Shown one piece after another: positions 5,320 through 33,918 of a stretch of DNA of 35,786 nucleotides (the first letter of the stretch is position 1; every line of letters begins with the position of its first letter). The notes under the pieces are model-generated. The model did no database searches, was not told the origin of the DNA, and worked only from the letters and a program-made list of their open reading frames with translations. The position numbers and the translations under genes were made by a program. This DNA is from a virus: positions 1 to 35,786 of IMG/VR virus record IMGVR_UViG_3300046007_007724; one strand, given 5' to 3'.

Positions 5320-5348
5320 ATAATAAATATTTAATGATTAATTTCCAA
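5320..5348 (-). promoter_or_regulatory. Sigma70-like promoter for glycosyltransferase run
   Basis: On the minus strand: -35 TTGGAA (5343-5348), 17-bp spacer, -10 TATTAT (5320-5325). The -35 box lies in the last codons of the upstream glycosyltransferase gene. The -10 ends 12 bases before the next ATG, so the 5' leader would be only a few bases. Part of a set of eight similar sites in the window. Confidence 0.45.
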
Positions 5349-6579
5349 CCTTTTGCAATTTAGGCAATTTCAATTCAATTGCTTTTGGTATGCTTTGTAA
5401 TTCAGTGTCTACAATACCAAGTACTTGTTCATACACTGCGGCTACTGCTGTTTTAGTAAATGTTGAATTAACGAAATAACGTTGACGTTTTGCAAGTTCT
5501 AACCACTTTTTATTGTTTTTATATACTTCTTGCATCATTTTTCCAGCATATCCGTAATCAGGAGTAAACCATTTTGCTTCAGCAATTAAAAACTCATTTT
5601 GTGCTGAAGGATGTATCGGAGTCAATTGACCTGGTAATGCACAAATGAAATCTTTCTTTAAGAAATCAGCTTGTCCTGAATAATGTGGTGCAATGATTGG
5701 TTTGCTTGTAGTAGAAAACTCTAATAATGGTCTTCCGAACCCTTCTGCTTTTGTAAATGATATCATAGCTTTAACTTTCTTATGATTATACAAAGCATTC
5801 ATTTCTGCATCAGTTAATTCGCCATGAACCAAATATACGTTTGGCAATTTTGATTTTGCAAACATGTCTCGCAGTTGATTGATTCGATTTTCAATATCCA
5901 TTCGATCCATGATGCTATATGTGGCACCACTTGTTTTTAAAATTAATGCCGGAGCGTTTTTTGTATCTTTGAATGTATTGAAGAAACAATGTAATAATCC
6001 ACCAATGTTTTTTCTATCTTCGCCAGCTTGTCCCGATAACCAATGTCCAACCGATAAAAATGCAAATGATTCGTCAATCATATCCAAATCTGAGATAGTT
6101 TCGGTTACATTTGTATTCGTATATACAGTTTCATCGAAATATTCTGGTATAACCACAATACGTGTTGTTATTGCTTTATTTTTTTGTTTTGATGTGCTTT
6201 CAAATACCGTTTTAGTAAATTCCGATGGAACGATTACTAATTGCATTGCATTAAGATTATCAATCCACGCTTCCGGGCAAACATCGCCTTCGGTTCCTGC
6301 TGTTACTCCAATATTGTATTTTCCAATCGGCTGAAATTCATTTGGAACTGAAATTTGTATCCAAACGTCTGGTTGCTCAGTTAATGGCAACGGAATAATA
6401 CGTAATTGAAAATCTGTTGAAATTGGATATGTCATTGGAGTATGACCCCATGGCAATGATAACAATTTAACGTCCCATTCAGAACCTCGTTGTTCTATAA
6501 TATTTGTTATGACTTCTCGTGCGTGATGTCCGTAACCTGATTGTGTCGCGACTGGCGATGCTATAACTACTTTTCTCAT
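5338..6579 (-). CDS. Family 4 glycosyltransferase (GT-B fold)
   Basis: 413 residues. The N-terminal half has GYGHHAREV (15-23), a donor-loop region common in GT-B enzymes. The C-terminal domain carries LSVGHWLSGQAGEDRKNIGGLL and the diagnostic EGFGRPLLE (279-287), the E-x7-E signature of GT4 retaining glycosyltransferases that binds the nucleotide-sugar. Its start overlaps the stop of the next upstream GT4 gene by one base (6579). The two adjacent GT4 genes are different proteins, not a recent duplicate. Confidence 0.85.
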   Translation of the reverse strand: MRKVVIASPVATQSGYGHHAREVITNIIEQRGSEWDVKLLSLPWGHTPMTYPISTDFQLRIIPLPLTEQPDVWIQISVPNEFQPIGKYNIGVTAGTEGDVCPEAWIDNLNAMQLVIVPSEFTKTVFESTSKQKNKAITTRIVVIPEYFDETVYTNTNVTETISDLDMIDESFAFLSVGHWLSGQAGEDRKNIGGLLHCFFNTFKDTKNAPALILKTSGATYSIMDRMDIENRINQLRDMFAKSKLPNVYLVHGELTDAEMNALYNHKKVKAMISFTKAEGFGRPLLEFSTTSKPIIAPHYSGQADFLKKDFICALPGQLTPIHPSAQNEFLIAEAKWFTPDYGYAGKMMQEVYKNNKKWLELAKRQRYFVNSTFTKTAVAAVYEQVLGIVDTELQSIPKAIELKLPKLQKVGN

Positions 6580-8039
6580 TATTCTACTATTCCTGTTCGT
6601 TCGTAACTTAGTGGTTGTGTTTTTGTTATGGTATATAACGGTCTGTATTCTCTGTTCATTACAAACAAATTGCGATACATGTTAATCATTTTGTTGCCCA
6701 TTTGTTCCGCAGTTAATCCATTACGCAATGACCATTCTCTTCCCTCTTTACCCATATCTTCGCGAAGTGTTTCAGGCGTATTGTACCAATAACGTATTGC
6801 ATCTGCAACATCTTCATAACGAACTCGGTCATCGAAAATATATGGGGTTGCCGGCGAACCTTGCAATGATCTATTACTCGGAAATACTGGTTTTACCCAT
6901 ATTCCATGCAATTTGTATTTGCCGGTATGGTTTGTTGCAAATTCACCATCAAAGCGAATCCATTCATCATTTTCATCAACAAATCCGCATTGATCTTGCA
7001 ATCCACCGGTTACATTGTTAATAATTGGAGTGCCGGCTAACATTGATTCTGTTGAACTTAGTCCCCAACCTTCATTTGATCCGATGTTTATTGTAACATC
7101 AACTACATTGTATAATGCATTAAGTTCCGGTGCTGACATTTTTGCTTCTGAAAACAATACTTTACACTTAGGTGCCAATGTTTTCCAAATTGCACGTAAA
7201 TCAGTACCATTATCGTCAACAACTTGTGTATGCATTAATAAGGCAACGCGATTTTTTTGTTCTTCAGGTAAACGATCAACAAAAGTTTTAAATGCTAATA
7301 TTACATCACCTGGTTGTTTTCTTCGAATATTTCTATTGTTCCAAAATACCACAAAATCGACACCATTTGCACGTTTTACTTGGTCATACATTTTAACGTA
7401 TAATGGATCTGTGTTTGCTAACGGTTTATATACATTATGATTCAATCCATGCGGTACATACCCAGTTAATACTTGGTTCCATTTTTTATCTACCGGTAAT
7501 GAATCACCTTCATCATAATTAATGACACCGAAGCCGTTCTGTTTAAGTACTTCTCTATGTATATTGTCGGATTGTTTGCTAATTCCCATGATCATATCAC
7601 AACTACCATAAAACGGCGCGTTCCACATTGGATACGGTAAATCGTCCCAAATAGAATAATATGTAATTGGAATATTAAATGTTGTTTTTATTTCATGTTC
7701 CAATGCATACAACCAAGTCCAATAACGAGGGTCTGTAAAATGTAATATTGCATCCGGCTGTTCTTGATTTAAAATTGCAAATAGAATGTTCCTATCGCCA
7801 TAACCATTCCATGGAATCAATTTAACTGTTGCATCGACAATTCCAGTTTCTGCAATTACATCTGGCGAAAGATCAAATGCCTTTCCGGCATCTGGGTGAT
7901 TGATTGCTGCTCCCAATTGAACCCAATCAAACTCTTTAACTGTGTTTAAGATAATTTCTTTACTAACGGTACCGATACCAGATGGTAAACGAAAATCATC
8001 ACCTAATAATAGGATTTTTTTCTTTTTTGATAACTCCAT
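6579..8039 (-). CDS. Family 4 glycosyltransferase (GT-B fold)
   Basis: 486 residues. The N-terminus KKILLLGDDFRLPSGIGTVS has the glycine-rich loop of GT-B enzymes. WNNRNIRRKQPGD (233-245) and NEGWGLSSTESMLAG (322-336) form the nucleotide-sugar site with the E-x7-E signature. ATG follows a good ribosome binding site, AAGGAAA. A promoter lies just upstream. The gene probably starts the glycan operon that continues to position 663. Confidence 0.85.
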   Translation of the reverse strand: MELSKKKKILLLGDDFRLPSGIGTVSKEIILNTVKEFDWVQLGAAINHPDAGKAFDLSPDVIAETGIVDATVKLIPWNGYGDRNILFAILNQEQPDAILHFTDPRYWTWLYALEHEIKTTFNIPITYYSIWDDLPYPMWNAPFYGSCDMIMGISKQSDNIHREVLKQNGFGVINYDEGDSLPVDKKWNQVLTGYVPHGLNHNVYKPLANTDPLYVKMYDQVKRANGVDFVVFWNNRNIRRKQPGDVILAFKTFVDRLPEEQKNRVALLMHTQVVDDNGTDLRAIWKTLAPKCKVLFSEAKMSAPELNALYNVVDVTINIGSNEGWGLSSTESMLAGTPIINNVTGGLQDQCGFVDENDEWIRFDGEFATNHTGKYKLHGIWVKPVFPSNRSLQGSPATPYIFDDRVRYEDVADAIRYWYNTPETLREDMGKEGREWSLRNGLTAEQMGNKMINMYRNLFVMNREYRPLYTITKTQPLSYERTGIVE

Positions 8040-10937: not shown

Positions 10938-11243
10938 TTATTTAATGTATATTGATTTAACGTCGCCATAGTCATCAAATTTAATATTAGTAACAATATA
11001 TTCTATATCATATTTTCTGAAAATATCATTATATTCTGAAATTAAACTTTCTTCATCTAGCATACTAGTATCTATTTCTTGGATATCATTAATTGAATCG
11101 TTTTTATTAATAGATGATAAATAATGTAATAATTTTTCTTCCGATATCCATCCTCGCAATTTATTACTTAATTCATTCAAATTTTTAGTTCCAAATCTAC
11201 GCATATTTTCAGCAAGTAAATTTTTCAGTTTAGTATTTACCAT
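10938..11243 (-). CDS. Small protein with capsid-targeting-like N-terminus, in an inserted cassette
   Basis: 101 residues. It begins MVNTKLKNLLAENMRRFGTKNL; KLKNLLAE matches the N-terminal motif of three other small proteins in this window. The RFGTKNL continuation is one I associate with phage structural or head-packaged proteins. The remainder is acidic, with no recognised domain. Start is supported by AAAGG seven bases upstream. The gene and its own terminator are bracketed by 19-bp direct repeats, and its AT content looks higher than that of the adjacent metabolic genes, so it is probably a later arrival. Function unknown. Confidence 0.7.
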   Translation of the reverse strand: MVNTKLKNLLAENMRRFGTKNLNELSNKLRGWISEEKLLHYLSSINKNDSINDIQEIDTSMLDEESLISEYNDIFRKYDIEYIVTNIKFDDYGDVKSIYIK

Positions 11244-23909: not shown

Positions 23910-24828
23910 CTAATATGTCTTTTATGTATGATACGGTTTGGGGTGACTCGGTAAATTCTTCTAATATTTGATGAATTTCAAAGTCATAAATTTGATGTTT
24001 TGCATATGTATCGGAATCTGCTGACATATAATCTTGCAACATGCTTTCATATGCCGATTCGGGACATAAACCCATTTCTAAATCCAAAATGCCATTCGTT
24101 GTATGTATTTTCCATTTAATAATATCAGCATCAATATCAAATTTCCAAGTTGCTATGCATTGTATGGAAATACTGTCAGTTTTGGCTTCAATACAAGCAC
24201 AATCATCTACATCGTAAATACCATTTTCTTGGAAATTACCATATGACGAATCATTTGCAACCGATTCCATATCATATTGCTGATGATGTATTGCAGATAT
24301 AACATGTAATGGCTCATTGCATAATATTTGTGCTGCACTTAATAAATGTGGCATCAAATCGCGAGATACTCCGCCGAATGCTAATGTTTCATTCGTAAAC
24401 CAACTTCCAGCTCCGGGTATTCTATTTTTATTTGCCCAAAACAATTGTATTTTGTTAATGTTTTCACGTGGTATAGAATTTAAAATGTTTCGGTATTGAT
24501 TATTTTTAACCATAAACAATTTAGTCTGTGGAAATGTTTTATAAAAACTTATCCACTCCCATAGATTTGCAAATCCAGGTTTTTCTACTACAATCCTAGG
24601 TACATTGCATTTTGCCATTGTCGTTGCAATTGGTTGATGTGTAAAATTTGGCGTACAAATAATACCCATATCAACTTGAACGTTACGCAATGCATCTTCA
24701 ATTCGAATAAAATCTGGATTCAACGATTTGTTAAAATCTACAGTAATTACATTCCAACCAATAGATTTGCAAACATCGACATACAACTTACCAATACCTA
24801 ATCCAACAATTACTACTGTCTTATGCAT
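23887..24828 (-). CDS. Gfo/Idh/MocA-family oxidoreductase
   Basis: 313 residues. VVIVGLGIGKLYVDV (5-19) is the Rossmann NAD(P)-binding loop, CTPNFTHQPIA (58-68) and VEKPG (81-85) are the hallmark motifs of the Gfo/Idh/MocA family, with Lys83 as catalytic residue. These enzymes oxidise or reduce sugars and related alcohols. It follows folE closely, with AAAGG as ribosome binding site, and overlaps the next gene by 23 bases. A link to sugar-modified bases is possible; sequence alone does not show it. Confidence 0.8.
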   Translation of the reverse strand: MHKTVVIVGLGIGKLYVDVCKSIGWNVITVDFNKSLNPDFIRIEDALRNVQVDMGIICTPNFTHQPIATTMAKCNVPRIVVEKPGFANLWEWISFYKTFPQTKLFMVKNNQYRNILNSIPRENINKIQLFWANKNRIPGAGSWFTNETLAFGGVSRDLMPHLLSAAQILCNEPLHVISAIHHQQYDMESVANDSSYGNFQENGIYDVDDCACIEAKTDSISIQCIATWKFDIDADIIKWKIHTTNGILDLEMGLCPESAYESMLQDYMSADSDTYAKHQIYDFEIHQILEEFTESPQTVSYIKDILDENKNIS

Positions 24829-25525
24829 TGTAACCTTTTATAAATTCGTAAAATTCAAATCGAGTACTAGAATCAGTCATAAATGCACCTGATAACTTTG
24901 CGGTTTTCATTGATGCACCGCGATGCTTTACTCCTCGACATGATACACAATTATGAGTTGCTTCAATCATAACTGCTACGCCTTTATTGTCGGTAATAAG
25001 TTCGTTGATTGCGTGTTGTATTGCTACTGTTAATTGTTCTTGAATTGCACCGCGTCTTCCAAAATGTTCAACTACTCGATTTAATTTACTTAAACCGACT
25101 ACATTGCCATTTTCTGCTGGAATATATGCAATATGAACTAATCCTTCAATTGTTTGATGATGATGACTACACATCGATGTTAATGGAATGCCTCCTTCAA
25201 ACACAATTCCATCATATCCGTCACTAGGGAAAGATGTGATATCAGACATTGGTTCGTAACGACCTTTCCATAAATCATTAACATATGCTTTTGCTACACG
25301 ACGAGGTGTATTATCTGAGTTTGGATCATTTTCCCAAACAACGCCCAATGCTGTTAAAAAATTACCATAATGATGTGCAGCATCGTCGATAATCTCTTGT
25401 TTCTCTACATCAGTTAATCTGGCATCTGGTCCGAACATTATTTGTTTTGTTGCTAATTGTGTTGAGATGCCATTAGCAAAGCCAGATTTAACTAATTCTA
25501 AATTTTTTCTTTGTTCTTTAGTCAT
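24821..25525 (-). CDS. folE: GTP cyclohydrolase I
   Basis: 234 residues. The zinc ligands are visible as Cys119 (TSMCSHHHQ) with the adjacent His residues and Cys193/Cys196 (HNCVSCRGV). VGLSKLNRVVEHFGRR and QEQLT are the conserved core. It turns GTP into dihydroneopterin triphosphate, the first step of 7-deazaguanine synthesis. It is the first gene of its block, with its own promoter, and overlaps the Gfo/Idh gene by eight bases. A folate role is possible, but QueD and QueE downstream make the deazaguanine route more likely. Confidence 0.95.
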   Translation of the reverse strand: MTKEQRKNLELVKSGFANGISTQLATKQIMFGPDARLTDVEKQEIIDDAAHHYGNFLTALGVVWENDPNSDNTPRRVAKAYVNDLWKGRYEPMSDITSFPSDGYDGIVFEGGIPLTSMCSHHHQTIEGLVHIAYIPAENGNVVGLSKLNRVVEHFGRRGAIQEQLTVAIQHAINELITDNKGVAVMIEATHNCVSCRGVKHRGASMKTAKLSGAFMTDSSTRFEFYEFIKGYNA

Positions 25526-25587: not shown

Positions 25588-26040
25588 TTACATGGTTGGG
25601 TCACCTGGAGTATCTATACCAGATGCATCATATTTTGGTAATTTAACTAAATTTACTTTGATTTGTTGTTCACTTAATGCCCAATTAGCAATTAGTCTAT
25701 GATGCCCGTCATATATTGCCATTTCACCATCGCTAAACTGAACAACATTGATTCTAGGAGCATTTTGTATGTTTGTGATAATTTGTTTTACTTTTTCAGC
25801 TTGTACGTTAGGTTGTGTTATATGAATATCTGCAATATTAACCATTTTAATATGATGTTCGTCTTCATGCCGTTCATATGTAACTATAACTTCATTCCAA
25901 TCATATTTAGACTTGTTAAAAACACCTTCTATATTTTTAGCATCCGCAAAAATTTTACCGGAAGGTAGTTTATCAACTCTAGTATAAGCTAATTCTATTG
26001 ATGAATTTGTTTCCTTTAATAAATTGCGTAGTCGTATCAT
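25588..26040 (-). CDS. CTS-like small protein with ParB-like core and C-terminal tag
   Basis: 150 residues in three parts. Residues 1-10, MIRLRNLLKE, match the N-terminal motif of three other proteins here and resemble capsid-targeting leaders ending in LxE. The core contains INVVQFSDGEMAIYDGHHRL (97-116); DGHHR with the surrounding strands resembles the ParB/sulfiredoxin nucleotide-binding or nuclease fold. Residues 136-150, KYDASGIDTPGDPTM, are shared with the adjacent gene. It lies 33 bases after that gene, and the gap holds a relic of an upstream gene end. Possibly a head-packaged effector; this is inference. Confidence 0.65.
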   Translation of the reverse strand: MIRLRNLLKETNSSIELAYTRVDKLPSGKIFADAKNIEGVFNKSKYDWNEVIVTYERHEDEHHIKMVNIADIHITQPNVQAEKVKQIITNIQNAPRINVVQFSDGEMAIYDGHHRLIANWALSEQQIKVNLVKLPKYDASGIDTPGDPTM

Positions 26041-26041
26041 A

Positions 26042-26080
26042 TTAATAAATATCTTTCAAGGTAGTATTTCCCTTTACATG
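26042..26080 (-). repeat. Relic copy of upstream gene's 3' end (HVKGNTTLKDIY-stop)
   Basis: On the minus strand, out of frame with the preceding gene, this encodes HVKGNTTLKDIY followed by TAA. The intact end of the Cys-rich gene at 26579-26617 encodes HIKGNTILKDIY-TAA. The 39 bases differ at six positions, mostly silent. A TGA lies just upstream in this frame and there is no start codon, so it is a non-coding scar. Both copies are followed by T-ATG-ATT of a MIRL(K/R)NLLKE gene. Confidence 0.8.
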
Positions 26081-26577
26081 TTTGGATCACCTGGCGTGTC
26101 GATGCCCGATGCATCGTATTTCGTTTGTGGTAGTTTAACTACTATTTCATCTCCATTAGTTTCAACTTTAGCACCGGGATAACTATGCTTAACATAACGT
26201 AAATATAAATTTGCTCTAGAACTATTATCAACTGCCCCTTGTTTTTTAACAGGAGTAAATACTAATGTATCAACATCTGGGTGTGTTTTTAAATCTTGTT
26301 TTACTATAGCAATTACAGTTGCCATGATTTTAAATATATCACCTTTATTAGTTTCTATATCATACCGTTCTTGGTCAGGATCTTCTTCATTAGGTACAAA
26401 AAATGAAATTTCTATTTCATTATCTTCATAATTGGTAATATGTACTGAGTATGGGTAATGGGATGTTTCGAAACCATAGTATCTTTCTTCATCATAAGGA
26501 CTTCCGTAGAATTCATATGGAAATGTCTGGGCAGTTGCTTCGCCTATTTCTTTTAATAAATTTTTTAATCGTATCAT
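26074..26577 (-). CDS. CTS-like small protein with shared C-terminal tag, unknown core
   Basis: 167 residues. It opens MIRLKNLLKE and ends KYDASGIDTPGDPNM (153-167), as does the next gene, but the core differs. The core has GDIFKIMATVIAIVKQDLK and DTLVFTPVKKQGAVDNSSRANLYLRYV, a pattern I associate with a conserved but unnamed phage domain. It lies one base after the Cys-rich gene's stop. Probably a head-packaged or effector protein by analogy with T4 internal proteins. Confidence 0.65.
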   Translation of the reverse strand: MIRLKNLLKEIGEATAQTFPYEFYGSPYDEERYYGFETSHYPYSVHITNYEDNEIEISFFVPNEEDPDQERYDIETNKGDIFKIMATVIAIVKQDLKTHPDVDTLVFTPVKKQGAVDNSSRANLYLRYVKHSYPGAKVETNGDEIVVKLPQTKYDASGIDTPGDPNM

Positions 26578-26578
26578 A

Positions 26579-26797
26579 TTAATAAATATCTTTTAAAATA
26601 GTATTACCTTTTATATGATGCGGTTCATATGGACAATGTCTACATCCATTTCCGCAACATTTACCTCTACGTACGTGAAATGATTCCGTAAAAACTCGAT
26701 ATCCATTTTCATAATAAAAGTCTGATGGAAGGAGCTTGTTTCCAAACTCCCTCACAAAGGCTTGTTGTATCCAATCTTTTGATGCAGACACTATCAT
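26579..26797 (-). CDS. Small Cys-rich protein, DUF5522-like
   Basis: 72 residues. YYENGYRVFTESFHVRRGK followed by CCGNGCRHCPYEP holds four Cys (47, 48, 52, 55) likely to bind metal. The pattern G-[YF]-CCG-x-GC-RHCP(Y/F) is that of DUF5522, which I associate with Bacteroidota and some plastid-bearing eukaryotes. Function unknown. Its start overlaps the ribonucleotide reductase stop as TAATG. Its last 12 codons are repeated as a relic at 26042-26080. Confidence 0.7.
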   Translation of the reverse strand: MIVSASKDWIQQAFVREFGNKLLPSDFYYENGYRVFTESFHVRRGKCCGNGCRHCPYEPHHIKGNTILKDIY

Positions 26798-28653
26798 TAT
26801 TTAACCTCACATGCTCCACCTGCACAAGCTAACTCTCCCGATAAATCTGTGTTATCATCAAGTTCAATTACTTGGCTTAAATCAATATTGGTTAATGATT
26901 TTAACATGGATTCATATTGTTCTTGCGTACAATCTTCAAATGGTGCTTGAGTATATGTTCCTCCATCATATGGTAATACTGATAATCCATTATAATGATC
27001 TCTGTTATTCCACATCCATTCTCCTGCCAATTCCCATTCATCTGCTTTAAGTGATACTGTTGCAGATACATTGTGAGTATTGTTTCCGGTTCTATGTCCT
27101 GGTTTAACCCATTCTAAATGTACTTTCTTGATGCGATCTAATAATTGAAAAGGAGATTCTGTTCTTAAGATTGCACCTTCTGGAGCTTTTTGTGGAATTG
27201 AAATAACCGCAGTGTCATGTGGACGAAAATATTCATCTTCAACTAACTCAGGATGATTAATTGACAAATATGTATAAATTGCTTCATTTTTTCCAACTCG
27301 TATTCTTCTAACATAATAATCATTGTGCCAAGCGTGAATGCCTGATGATGTTCCTAATGCTAATGATGTTGTTCCCGCAGGTTTAACTGTGGTAGTACGA
27401 GCTGATTTATTAATACCAATAATATTTGCAACTCTTTCATTTTCTATTTTAACTGCTTTTGCTGCGGCTTTCATATCATATCCCAATACAGTACCAGAAC
27501 CAATACCTGTCATGGATACTCCTATCAATGCATCTTTCTCAGTTGTGCGTTGCCAAATTGGACGTAAATAATGAAAACTAGTATATCCTGCTTGAAGCGT
27601 ACCAATAAATGCTGCAGCACGAACTCTTTCTTCTAAATCTTCTTGTGATTCAATATCTGATGCATTTACTTCACATAAGTTACAGAACTGGAATGGTCGT
27701 AGTGCAATTTCGCAACATGGATTAGTTCCCCAATCTTTATCATTTGTTAAATAGATTCCTGGTTCTCCTGCTCCTGATAATTCAACACGTTTCCATAAAT
27801 CCATGAAAAAGTCTTTTGTTAATTTATGACGCATCAATGTTGCCGAATTATTAGCACGGCCTCTTTGTGGATTAGTTTCCCACCAGTTACCTGACTTACA
27901 TGCAATCATTTCTTCATCATCGGCTGAAAATAAAGATATAAGTGCTGCTCTACGAATGCCGCCTGCTAATACAGCATCCGCAACGTGGCAAACCATATCG
28001 TGTACTTCAATTGGTGAAAGTTTATCGCCATCTTCTTTTGCATCCAAAATACCTTGAAGCTTAATCAAACATTCTTTAAGCGGTTGTGGTCCTGGAGCTT
28101 TTCCTCCTGATGTAACTAAACGTGCTCCTTTGTGACGAATATCAGAAAAATCAAATGCAAATGAAGAACCCCCCGTAAAGTAAGATTTAACTAGAACTTT
28201 AACTGCATCTGCCCATCCTTCAATTGAATCCGCAATTAAATATCTGCGAGTTTTTTTAGGATTTGGTTTGTGAATTTCTGGCAATTGTTCTACGTGGTGT
28301 TTTTGCACTGAATAACCTACACCCGTACCTCCTAATAAAAGAAACATTGCTTCACCAAATGCACGGTGGTCATCGATTGGCAAATACGCACAATTGTAAA
28401 TACGATTAGGAGAAATTTCAATTGGCTTTCCACCAAATTGCAAACTACGCATTGATGGTAATACTTTTTTGTCATATACAAAACGATATGCTGATTCAAT
28501 TTCCGCTTCCAATTGTGGATATTTTTTGATGTGCATTGTTTTGTTTCTTGTAACTAGTTCATCCCAAGTTTCTCGACGATTGAGTTCTGGGAGATATTTC
28601 GCATACTTCATGTATACGGTAATTTCGCTTAAAATTTTGTTGGAAATTTCCAT
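26797..28653 (-). CDS. nrdJ: Ribonucleotide reductase, class II (adenosylcobalamin-dependent)
   Basis: 618 residues. NRIYNCAYLPID (Cys88) and FQFCNLCEVN (Cys324/Cys327) supply the redox Cys pair; NPCCEI (311-316) holds the thiyl-radical Cys313 and Glu315 of the barrel loop. The tail ends ELACAGGACEVK, a CX4C pair that passes electrons from thioredoxin. No ATP-cone-like N-terminus or small subunit gene is seen, and the overall pattern fits the monomeric B12 type. It would supply deoxynucleotides for phage DNA. It follows a terminator. Confidence 0.87.
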   Translation of the reverse strand: MEISNKILSEITVYMKYAKYLPELNRRETWDELVTRNKTMHIKKYPQLEAEIESAYRFVYDKKVLPSMRSLQFGGKPIEISPNRIYNCAYLPIDDHRAFGEAMFLLLGGTGVGYSVQKHHVEQLPEIHKPNPKKTRRYLIADSIEGWADAVKVLVKSYFTGGSSFAFDFSDIRHKGARLVTSGGKAPGPQPLKECLIKLQGILDAKEDGDKLSPIEVHDMVCHVADAVLAGGIRRAALISLFSADDEEMIACKSGNWWETNPQRGRANNSATLMRHKLTKDFFMDLWKRVELSGAGEPGIYLTNDKDWGTNPCCEIALRPFQFCNLCEVNASDIESQEDLEERVRAAAFIGTLQAGYTSFHYLRPIWQRTTEKDALIGVSMTGIGSGTVLGYDMKAAAKAVKIENERVANIIGINKSARTTTVKPAGTTSLALGTSSGIHAWHNDYYVRRIRVGKNEAIYTYLSINHPELVEDEYFRPHDTAVISIPQKAPEGAILRTESPFQLLDRIKKVHLEWVKPGHRTGNNTHNVSATVSLKADEWELAGEWMWNNRDHYNGLSVLPYDGGTYTQAPFEDCTQEQYESMLKSLTNIDLSQVIELDDNTDLSGELACAGGACEVK

Positions 28654-33154: not shown

Positions 33155-33262
33155 AAGTCTTCCTTTGTTAATTTGTTAATATATACTTGTTTACTTATTA
33201 ATAATAATTAATAAATGGGTTAATTCAAAGTTAATTGTTAAGTTTTTTATTTATTTTTAGTA

Positions 33263-33508
33263 TTAGTCATTTTCAATATCACGTGCAAGTTTTTCGATTG
33301 CTTTGATAATTGGAAAAATTTGACGATTATACATTTGTTGTTTACCAGGTTGTTCAGTGATGTCATCGGCATCATCAGCTGTCATGGTGGTAAGTTCAGC
33401 AACTGCATTTAAAATATGCTGATATACCTTTTTTTCAGAATCTGATAATGGACCTGTTGTTGATGCTTTATATTCGTGTTCTTTAAGAACGTTTTTTAAT
33501 TTAATCAT
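33263..33508 (-). CDS. CTS-like small helical protein
   Basis: 81 residues. MIKLKNVLKEHEYK carries the same N-terminal motif as the genes at 26577, 26040 and 11243. The remainder is helical and acidic (ADDADDITEQ). No domain recognised. A ribosome binding site AAGGAATT precedes the ATG. It could be another head-packaged protein or a scaffold-type protein; function unknown. Confidence 0.65.
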   Translation of the reverse strand: MIKLKNVLKEHEYKASTTGPLSDSEKKVYQHILNAVAELTTMTADDADDITEQPGKQQMYNRQIFPIIKAIEKLARDIEND

Positions 33509-33531
33509 TTAATTCCTTATATAAATAAATA

Positions 33532-33918
33532 TTACTTCCACGAAAATTTCTTGAAAAATACAAGATCAATTACTCGGTAACTATCCGTGTCTGTAAGTAT
33601 AAATGAGTTTTGATACATCGCCCATTCCAATTGGTAAGTTTTATCTAACACTCCGTTGTTTACTGCTCGAATAACTTCATTCAAAGCATTTACTGTATAC
33701 AATGTGTTTGTTTCTTTTTTACGATGTATGCTAATAGTATTCTGTCCGCGTTGAGTTCCTGCATCGGCGTTGTATGTGCAATACAAGTTATCCGTTGCAT
33801 CTGCATTTGCAAATACAAAGATTCTACGTTCTGGTATTATGTAACTTTGTTGTATGTAATCTACAACAATGTTTAAGTCTGATTTATGTGCAAATGTGCA
33901 AAGTAATTGTGTTTTCAA
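33532..33918 (-). CDS. Unknown protein, TTG start coupled to upstream stop
   Basis: 128 residues, starting KTQLLCTFAHKSDLNIVVDYI and containing RRIFVFANADATDNLYCTYN. No family recognised. The start is TTG at 33918, overlapping the upstream stop as TTGA, with GAGGAA at the correct spacing; there is no usable ATG until late in the frame. It ends with a basic-aromatic FFKKFSWK. Confidence 0.65.
   Translation of the reverse strand: MKTQLLCTFAHKSDLNIVVDYIQQSYIIPERRIFVFANADATDNLYCTYNADAGTQRGQNTISIHRKKETNTLYTVNALNEVIRAVNNGVLDKTYQLEWAMYQNSFILTDTDSYRVIDLVFFKKFSWK

Follow-up and report, generated by a model that had tools for sequence, protein, structure and literature searches.

Phages of the T-even group have a polymorphic internal-protein locus at which packaged proteins are reportedly swapped at a fixed site, as is said to have been described by Repoila et al. 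in 1994. To our knowledge the constant piece at this locus is the leader, and we know of no C-terminal tag common to its products. Encapsulin cargo-loading peptides are short C-terminal peptides that send diverse enzymes into a shell with a phage-capsid-like fold. For T4, one source (PMC9026906) reports that in a ten-residue leader residues 4 and 7 matter for targeting to the prohead core, whereas residues 8 and 10 matter for cutting the leader off; it also states that Asp at position 10 permits targeting and blocks processing, and describes trimming of the C-terminus of Alt by gp21. The T4 proteins Ip1-3 are described in PMC12373910 as lacking homology beyond the leader and as encoded in a genomic hotspot. 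According to PMC5512222, polyvalent proteins of phages and conjugative elements include ART, kinase, GNAT and ParB/sulfiredoxin domains and have been proposed to travel with the DNA.

The window, by which we mean the whole 35,786-nucleotide stretch analyzed, is a 35.8-kb fragment of an uncultured T4-like phage. On its minus strand, genes A (25588..26040, 150 aa) and B (26074..26577, 167 aa), each recognized from its ORF, predicted fold and relatives, lie in tandem between a GTP cyclohydrolase gene (FolE; 24821..25525, minus strand; PHROG E 2.2e-61) and a ribonucleotide reductase gene (26797..28653, minus strand; PHROG E 2.5e-127), which form the two edges of a cassette hotspot; a neighboring 72-aa ORF with the motif CCGNGCRHCPY (26579..26797, minus strand) also belongs to it. 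Both proteins started with MIRL(R/K)NLLKE, read as MIRLRNLLKE in A (26011..26040) and MIRLKNLLKE in B (26548..26577), and ended in KYDASGIDTPGDP(T/N)M, a 15-residue tag with the sequence KYDASGIDTPGDPTM in A (25591..25635) and KYDASGIDTPGDPNM in B (26077..26121), all on the minus strand. The cores between these ends gave no match to each other at E<1. The first-pass annotation had described two adjacent proteins with the same tag, a shared N-terminal leader and unrelated cores, and this description was exact; the window yielded no further copy of the tag beyond these two. Its count of seven silent changes and one replacement across the 15 codons was reproduced by codon comparison (silent at Y, S, G, I, D, T and D; replacement T/N), and at least seven silent among eight changes has P = 1.7e-4 under random change (10 silent sites of 45). 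Three of the first 10 codons also differed, one of them by a replacement (R/K). The shared block started about 30 bases 5' of each ATG, an extension missed in that annotation, and a promoter-like ATATTTATTAAT was situated immediately 5' of the ATG of both gene A (26041..26052, minus strand) and gene B (26578..26589, minus strand). Upstream of gene A we found a remnant that repeats the 3'-terminal part of the 72-aa ORF (GNTTLKDIY and stop; 26042..26071, minus strand), the intact end of which reads GNTILKDIY and stop at 26579-26608; the remnant indicates that duplication of the left end did happen. Elsewhere in the window (5338-8039, minus strand), two adjacent genes matched the same glycosyltransferase PHROG (phrog_2170).

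Each of the two proteins was modeled as a single domain plus a leader helix. For the predicted structure of the gene A core, the best Foldseek match was sulfiredoxin (E 1.2e-4), followed by Noc and ParB, and VIA gave Z 8.5 with an rmsd of 2.5 over 75 residues. DGHHR was invariant in 10 aligned sequences, and its GHHR is what we take to be the motif of the ParB/sulfiredoxin superfamily. Judged by its model, the core meets the test for this superfamily through fold and G-x-x-R motif, in agreement with the ParB-like label that it had been given from the sequence. Most of the 50 VIA matches listed for the gene B core were acetyltransferases (best Z 8.7, rmsd 3.4, 104 aligned), with no Foldseek match at E<=0.001, RNase E domains among the top ranks and no Pfam GNAT match. 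The alignment from which B was modeled mixed two of the core clusters described below, CL3 and CL7, for which hhalign on trimmed cores gave 1.2% and no link. A GNAT-like fold is predicted for B with weaker support than the fold of A. The tag was disordered in both models (pLDDT about 44), as expected of a binding peptide.

A first scan with gene A returned 25 loci; 10 of them aligned across the core, the other 15 solely in the C-terminal part. Degenerate scans for the tag in viral contigs returned 45, 51 and 14 stretches, a few of them chance matches. We translated 50 ORF ends and dropped seven shorter than 55 residues, leaving 43 tagged ORFs, some of them near-identical variants. Once head and tail were trimmed off, the cores formed 13 clusters (blastp E<1e-3); the best blastp E across clusters was 0.026, and the best hhalign probability over all 78 cluster pairs was 16.8%. 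The tag therefore ends 13 core clusters without detectable similarity and is not restricted to full-length homologues; such a restriction would have refuted the first-pass reading of the tag, which this check left standing. Core types were the ParB/sulfiredoxin-like type of A, the B core, a GNAT (one cluster, Pfam E 3.5e-7), a match to ART-PolyVal (CL9, E 2.5e-6, 28.8 bits, below the curated cut-off of 31.2), kinase-like proteins assigned by eye from HGDN and DF motifs, ART-like proteins also assigned by eye, and unnamed cores. Most cores stayed unnamed in PHROG and Pfam scans, not every cluster having been scanned in both. The leader was present in 37 of the 43 tagged ORFs by a loose rule and in 30 by a strict one. 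Among the six without a visible leader, L041 and L075 are truncated versions of other ORFs, one breaks off at the end of its locus and shows its leader in L244, L013 breaks off at the contig end, L073 has its leader in another frame and L069 has an unusual start. Cultured phages gave no match to A, to B or to a tag-bearing piece of 24 residues (for the tag piece, none at E up to 10), and the tag pattern had 0 hits in the GTDB genome collection. GNAT-type cargo (L023, L024, L043 and L062) had Asp at leader position 10 (MIRLQDILFDD). Where tags had alanine at position 4, the codon was always GCA, mostly inside the palindrome GATGCATC, with variation at neighboring silent sites; GCA accounts for 59% of alanine codons genome-wide.

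The leader MIRL(R/K)NLLKE fitted the key positions of T4 IPIII (positions 4 and 7 hydrophobic, an L at 8, where the rule takes L/I, and an E at 10), and T4 MKTYQEFIAE also fitted all four; under the T4 rule given in PMC9026906, the capsid-targeting-like leader of gene A is predicted to be cut after E10. Gene starts that satisfied a slightly looser form of this rule numbered 7, 7, 7, 3, 2, 7 and 13 across seven records, where 0.28-0.48 per record would be expected. These counts include tagged genes, and the 3 and 2 belong to two records without the tag, G006 (covered for 160,000 of 166,276 bases) and G007; in the five tag-bearing records tested, enrichment was 15-28-fold. A Peptidase_S77 prohead protease (PF03420) was present in 10 of 10 long related records, six of which bear the tag. 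The window record had 0 matches to PF03420 and no prohead protease was found in it; as this record is a fragment, what is known of protease and capsid comes from relatives alone. Major capsid proteins of seven related records carried ...QLV(K/I/T)E, by eye like T4 FLTE, the region being unaligned. In the cultured Microcystis phage Mel-JY01, found through its 69.7% identical reductase, only three ORFs fitted the strict leader pattern, all within 2.6 kb after the reductase gene, and the phage had neither the tag nor the prohead-side motif described below. We are confident, if short of certain, that these proteins are leader-directed head cargo. A and B are assigned to a predicted cargo family of the T4 internal-protein kind on the basis of leader, protease of the relatives, core diversity and hotspot, their presence in virions being inferred.

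Similar cores also occurred without the tag. Eight of 14 matches to the B core family were untagged (five with a leader, one cut short and two without a typical leader), as were five of eight matches to cluster CL7, and in G006 and its relatives a core 89% identical to B had the leader MINLLDIIKE and no tag. Since the same cores can have the leader and be untagged, it is the leader that stays constant in the cargo, with the tag as an addition. Some leader proteins ended in shorter variants of the tag, ...FDWTGIKDK or ...YDASGVSDAMN. The first-pass annotation had seen in the shared ends a delivery frame; what stands of this is the leader, supported by its fit to the T4 capsid-targeting rule and by the T4-type protease of relatives, and what has to be revised is the place of the tag, an addition to the frame and not its essence, with packaging still inferred. 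An untagged leader protein that is kinase-like by eye was present in all five tag-bearing records read whole (G001, 101480-102025; G002, 45633-46190; G003, 107621-108163; G005, 127505-128050; G009, 33157-33699), and its G005 copy matched the tagged kinase-like cluster (E 1.6e-5). Nine ORFs whose remainders are unlike by eye open with a different and longer leader, ...LLAENMRRFGTKNLNE (window 10938-11243, minus strand; L040, L041, L064, L067, L133, L136, L137 and L039); these are perhaps another class of leader cargo.

The reductase, the 72-aa ORF or FolE lay within 2.6 kb of 33 of the 43 tagged ORFs. The other 10 showed no hotspot marker, for some of them with a short flank, and in record G009 four tagged genes were close together with no marker recognized nearby. 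L053, with a ParB-like core, and L058 had flanks that were 92% identical upstream and 100% identical downstream over 100 bases, and their tags were identical in DNA from the fifth codon to the end and for the 100 bases beyond, whereas their cores were 45% identical, below the shuffled background of 58%. Both 100-nt flanks reached at least 75% in 17 of 681 pairs from different clusters (near-duplicate ORFs included). In L008, L056/L064 and L074, two cores were fused with a remnant TKYDAS between them. Unrelated cores between near-identical flanks, together with the fusions, mean that cores have been exchanged in place with the constant ends taking part in crossovers, and the DNA of the tag, too, acts as a crossover arm in recent core swaps. 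Recent duplication of the tag within one genome was considered and rejected, as same-contig tag pairs differed at 7-10 bases (five contigs), near the mean of 10.9 over all tag pairs. The word ATATTTAT was the most enriched upstream word in four of five related records and joint top in the fifth (G001, G002, G003, G005 and G009; shuffles preserved single-base content only). In the intergenic upstream DNA of G001, ATATTTAT(A) occurred in 24 of 41 segments against 1.65 expected, mainly on one strand. Going by its distribution, ATATTTAT(A) is probably a main phage promoter element; it differs from the TATAAATA of T4. No such word was found within 80 bases upstream of seven capsid genes, so evidence that it is a late promoter is lacking.

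Pooled over 39 tags, pN/pS was 0.19 with pS at silent sites of 0.66; with one tag per cluster the ratio was 0.22 (0.19-0.27), and pS ranged from 0.66 to 0.69 across tag sets. Neutral simulation gave 0.99, the lowest of 200 runs being 0.60. Because one scan pattern constrained the peptide at codon 6 and beyond, and two others constrained codons 3-10, the pooled ratio is too low at those codons, and two less constrained measures carry more weight. In tags from the scan constrained from codon 6, codons 1-5 had a pN/pS of 0.33, or 0.48 with one tag per cluster, and in ParB-like relatives found mainly by their core (a subset fetched with six patterns, one of them inside the tag) the ratio was 0.17 for the tag versus 0.41 for the core. 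Seven tags without hotspot markers nearby gave 0.36. Silent and replacement tag codons in tandem pairs were 7/1 in the window, 7/0 in L007, 5/2 in L015, 4/3 in L051 and 1/5 in L010, where the pair joins two tag flavors. The earlier inference that selection keeps the peptide survives correction for search bias; overall, codon comparison indicates purifying selection on the tag peptide that nonetheless tolerates some replacements.

The first half of the tag, (Y/F)D(W/A)(S/T)G(I/V), occurred 11 times in 1,226 predicted proteins from seven records, against 0.09 in shuffles. Nine of these occurrences were at the C-termini of leader proteins and two lay in the product of the gene immediately 5' of the protease gene, within the portal-to-protease gene stretch; no other protein among the 1,226 had the motif. 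The upstream-of-protease protein starts with MKTFLQQIEEAF, which by eye closely resembles a T4 leader, and found no match in a cultured-phage search. We obtained 51 distinct relatives of it from 74 loci (the best 80 of at least 224 were taken, six of the 80 lacked an intact ORF, and two of those six show the motif). YDWSG(I/V) was exact in 17 of the 51 and the motif was absent from 34; where present it was part of a conserved VEYDWSG(I/V)K, most of the 20 preceding residues varying. In the seven tag-bearing records for which this protein is known, the prohead-side motif was present in G001 and G005 and missing from G002, G003, G009, G021 and G022, while five incomplete records with the prohead-side motif (G012, G014, G015, G019 and G020) gave no tag match. 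Tag and prohead-side motif were compared only as a short word. Their sharing of this word points to a common partner inside the prohead, and we tentatively suggest, from sequence alone, that the tag is a docking motif of the prohead, a suggestion that could well be wrong. Still more doubtful is a complete two-ended head-cargo address, made of a cleaved N-terminal leader and a C-terminal peptide copying a prohead-core docking motif YD(W/A)(S/T)G(I/V). A C-terminal protease cleavage site, as in T4 Alt, was rejected for the tag, which has no L/I-x-E site. T4 was also rejected as the source of the motif: two T4 stretches (42 kb, six frames) gave one match, FDATGVN, which ends gp29 (baseplate hub/tail length protein; NC_000866 118878-120650). 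No relative of gp29 or of three other T4 tail proteins was found among the seven records, which makes this match uninformative; it may be chance.

We postulate that each gene is a self-contained cargo cassette in which a promoter-like word precedes a protein made up of a T4-type leader, an effector core that can be exchanged and a short, disordered peptide at the C-terminus. Docking of the protein onto the prohead core would most likely be the task of the leader, a gp21-type protease would cut after Glu, and the effector would then be packed with the DNA and injected. Within this scheme the C-terminal peptide would most likely be a second prohead docking motif, because its first half recurs in the upstream-of-protease protein of some relatives, and cores would be swapped in place by recombination between constant ends, mostly at the RNR-folE hotspot. 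The data establish the frame with its many unrelated cores, the constraint on the tag, core swaps between constant flanks and the motif in common with the prohead-side protein, whereas packaging, cleavage, injection and docking by the tag are inferred without virion proteomics. Taken as a whole, leader-addressed head-cargo cassettes with swappable cores and the tag as docking motif are an explanation that we lean toward only slightly.

If A and B were diverged duplicates of one gene with ends that happen to be best conserved, their tandem arrangement and the remnant of the 72-aa ORF before A would be accounted for. The predicted folds differ, however, the 13 clusters do not align, and G006 and its relatives combine the core of B with a different leader and no tag; ordinary paralogy is extremely improbable, and as far as these comparisons can tell the shared ends of A and B are not due to it. 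Alternatively, the tag may have no function as a peptide, its DNA being retained as a homology arm by the recombination of cassettes through it. The unrelated cores of L053 and L058 running into identical DNA from the fifth tag codon fit such an arm, as do L027/L010 and L016/L021, with tags one base apart and similar flanks, and the fusions and, by eye, one deletion (L039) that join at the tag sequence. Yet silent sites of the tag have diverged while pN/pS stays well below its neutral value, in the less-biased measures and in tags without hotspot markers too, and the motif recurs inside a non-cargo protein, which leaves an arm without peptide function unlikely.

Short, disordered, acidic C-terminal peptides are common binding motifs or degradation signals, and the tag might act after injection or before packaging, as an anchor, a stabilizer or a means of inactivity in the producing cell, unrelated to the prohead. 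The T4 leader alone suffices for packaging according to PMC9026906, so the tag may do something else, and the prohead-side motif is absent from five of the seven tag-bearing records examined. Such a role has to be reconciled with a tag found on many enzyme types and with a first half that, in seven proteomes, occurs elsewhere only in the protein next to the protease; we consider it rather unlikely but worth keeping in view. The likeness of the leader could itself be coincidental and the proteins unpackaged cytoplasmic accessories, given that ten amphipathic residues at the start make a weak pattern and that no proteomics are available. This is improbable in view of the excess of leader-like gene starts in the five tag-bearing records, the agreement of A and B with all key T4 positions and the T4-type protease in every long relative.

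A single short peptide yielded 13 core clusters, several without any database family match. Should leader-addressed cassettes with a docking tag prove true, the leader-tag frame would be a readable label for phage-injected proteins and a way to list virion-delivered effectors of uncultured and environmental phages from sequence alone; it would show how phages exchange effectors without breaking delivery and would add a second address for loading heads. A search of the literature, limited to titles and the starts of abstracts, found no shared C-terminal tag on T4-type head cargo, and a two-ended address, if true, would include a C-terminal signal for loading cargo into a T4-type head, of which we know no earlier example. 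Like T4 IPI, IPII, IPIII and Alt, the window family has the key positions of the ten-residue leader, with gp21 cleavage in T4 and predicted cleavage here, and as with the T4 internal proteins its mature cores are unrelated and situated in a genomic hotspot, with a T4-type prohead protease in relatives. In contrast, IPI, IPII and IPIII end differently and share no C-terminal peptide, whereas the window family has its 15-residue tag and a promoter-like word. The cargo classes (ART-like, GNAT, kinase-like and ParB-like) match effectors expected in phage heads. Polyvalent proteins are multidomain chains, whereas the window family consists mostly of single domains in separate cassettes with common ends; A and B are not chains of several effectors, the longer relatives being the two-core fusions and perhaps the 370-aa L068 protein. 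Compared with encapsulin cargo-loading peptides, to which no sequence relation is implied, the C-terminal peptide here is combined with an N-terminal leader that is predicted to be cleaved.
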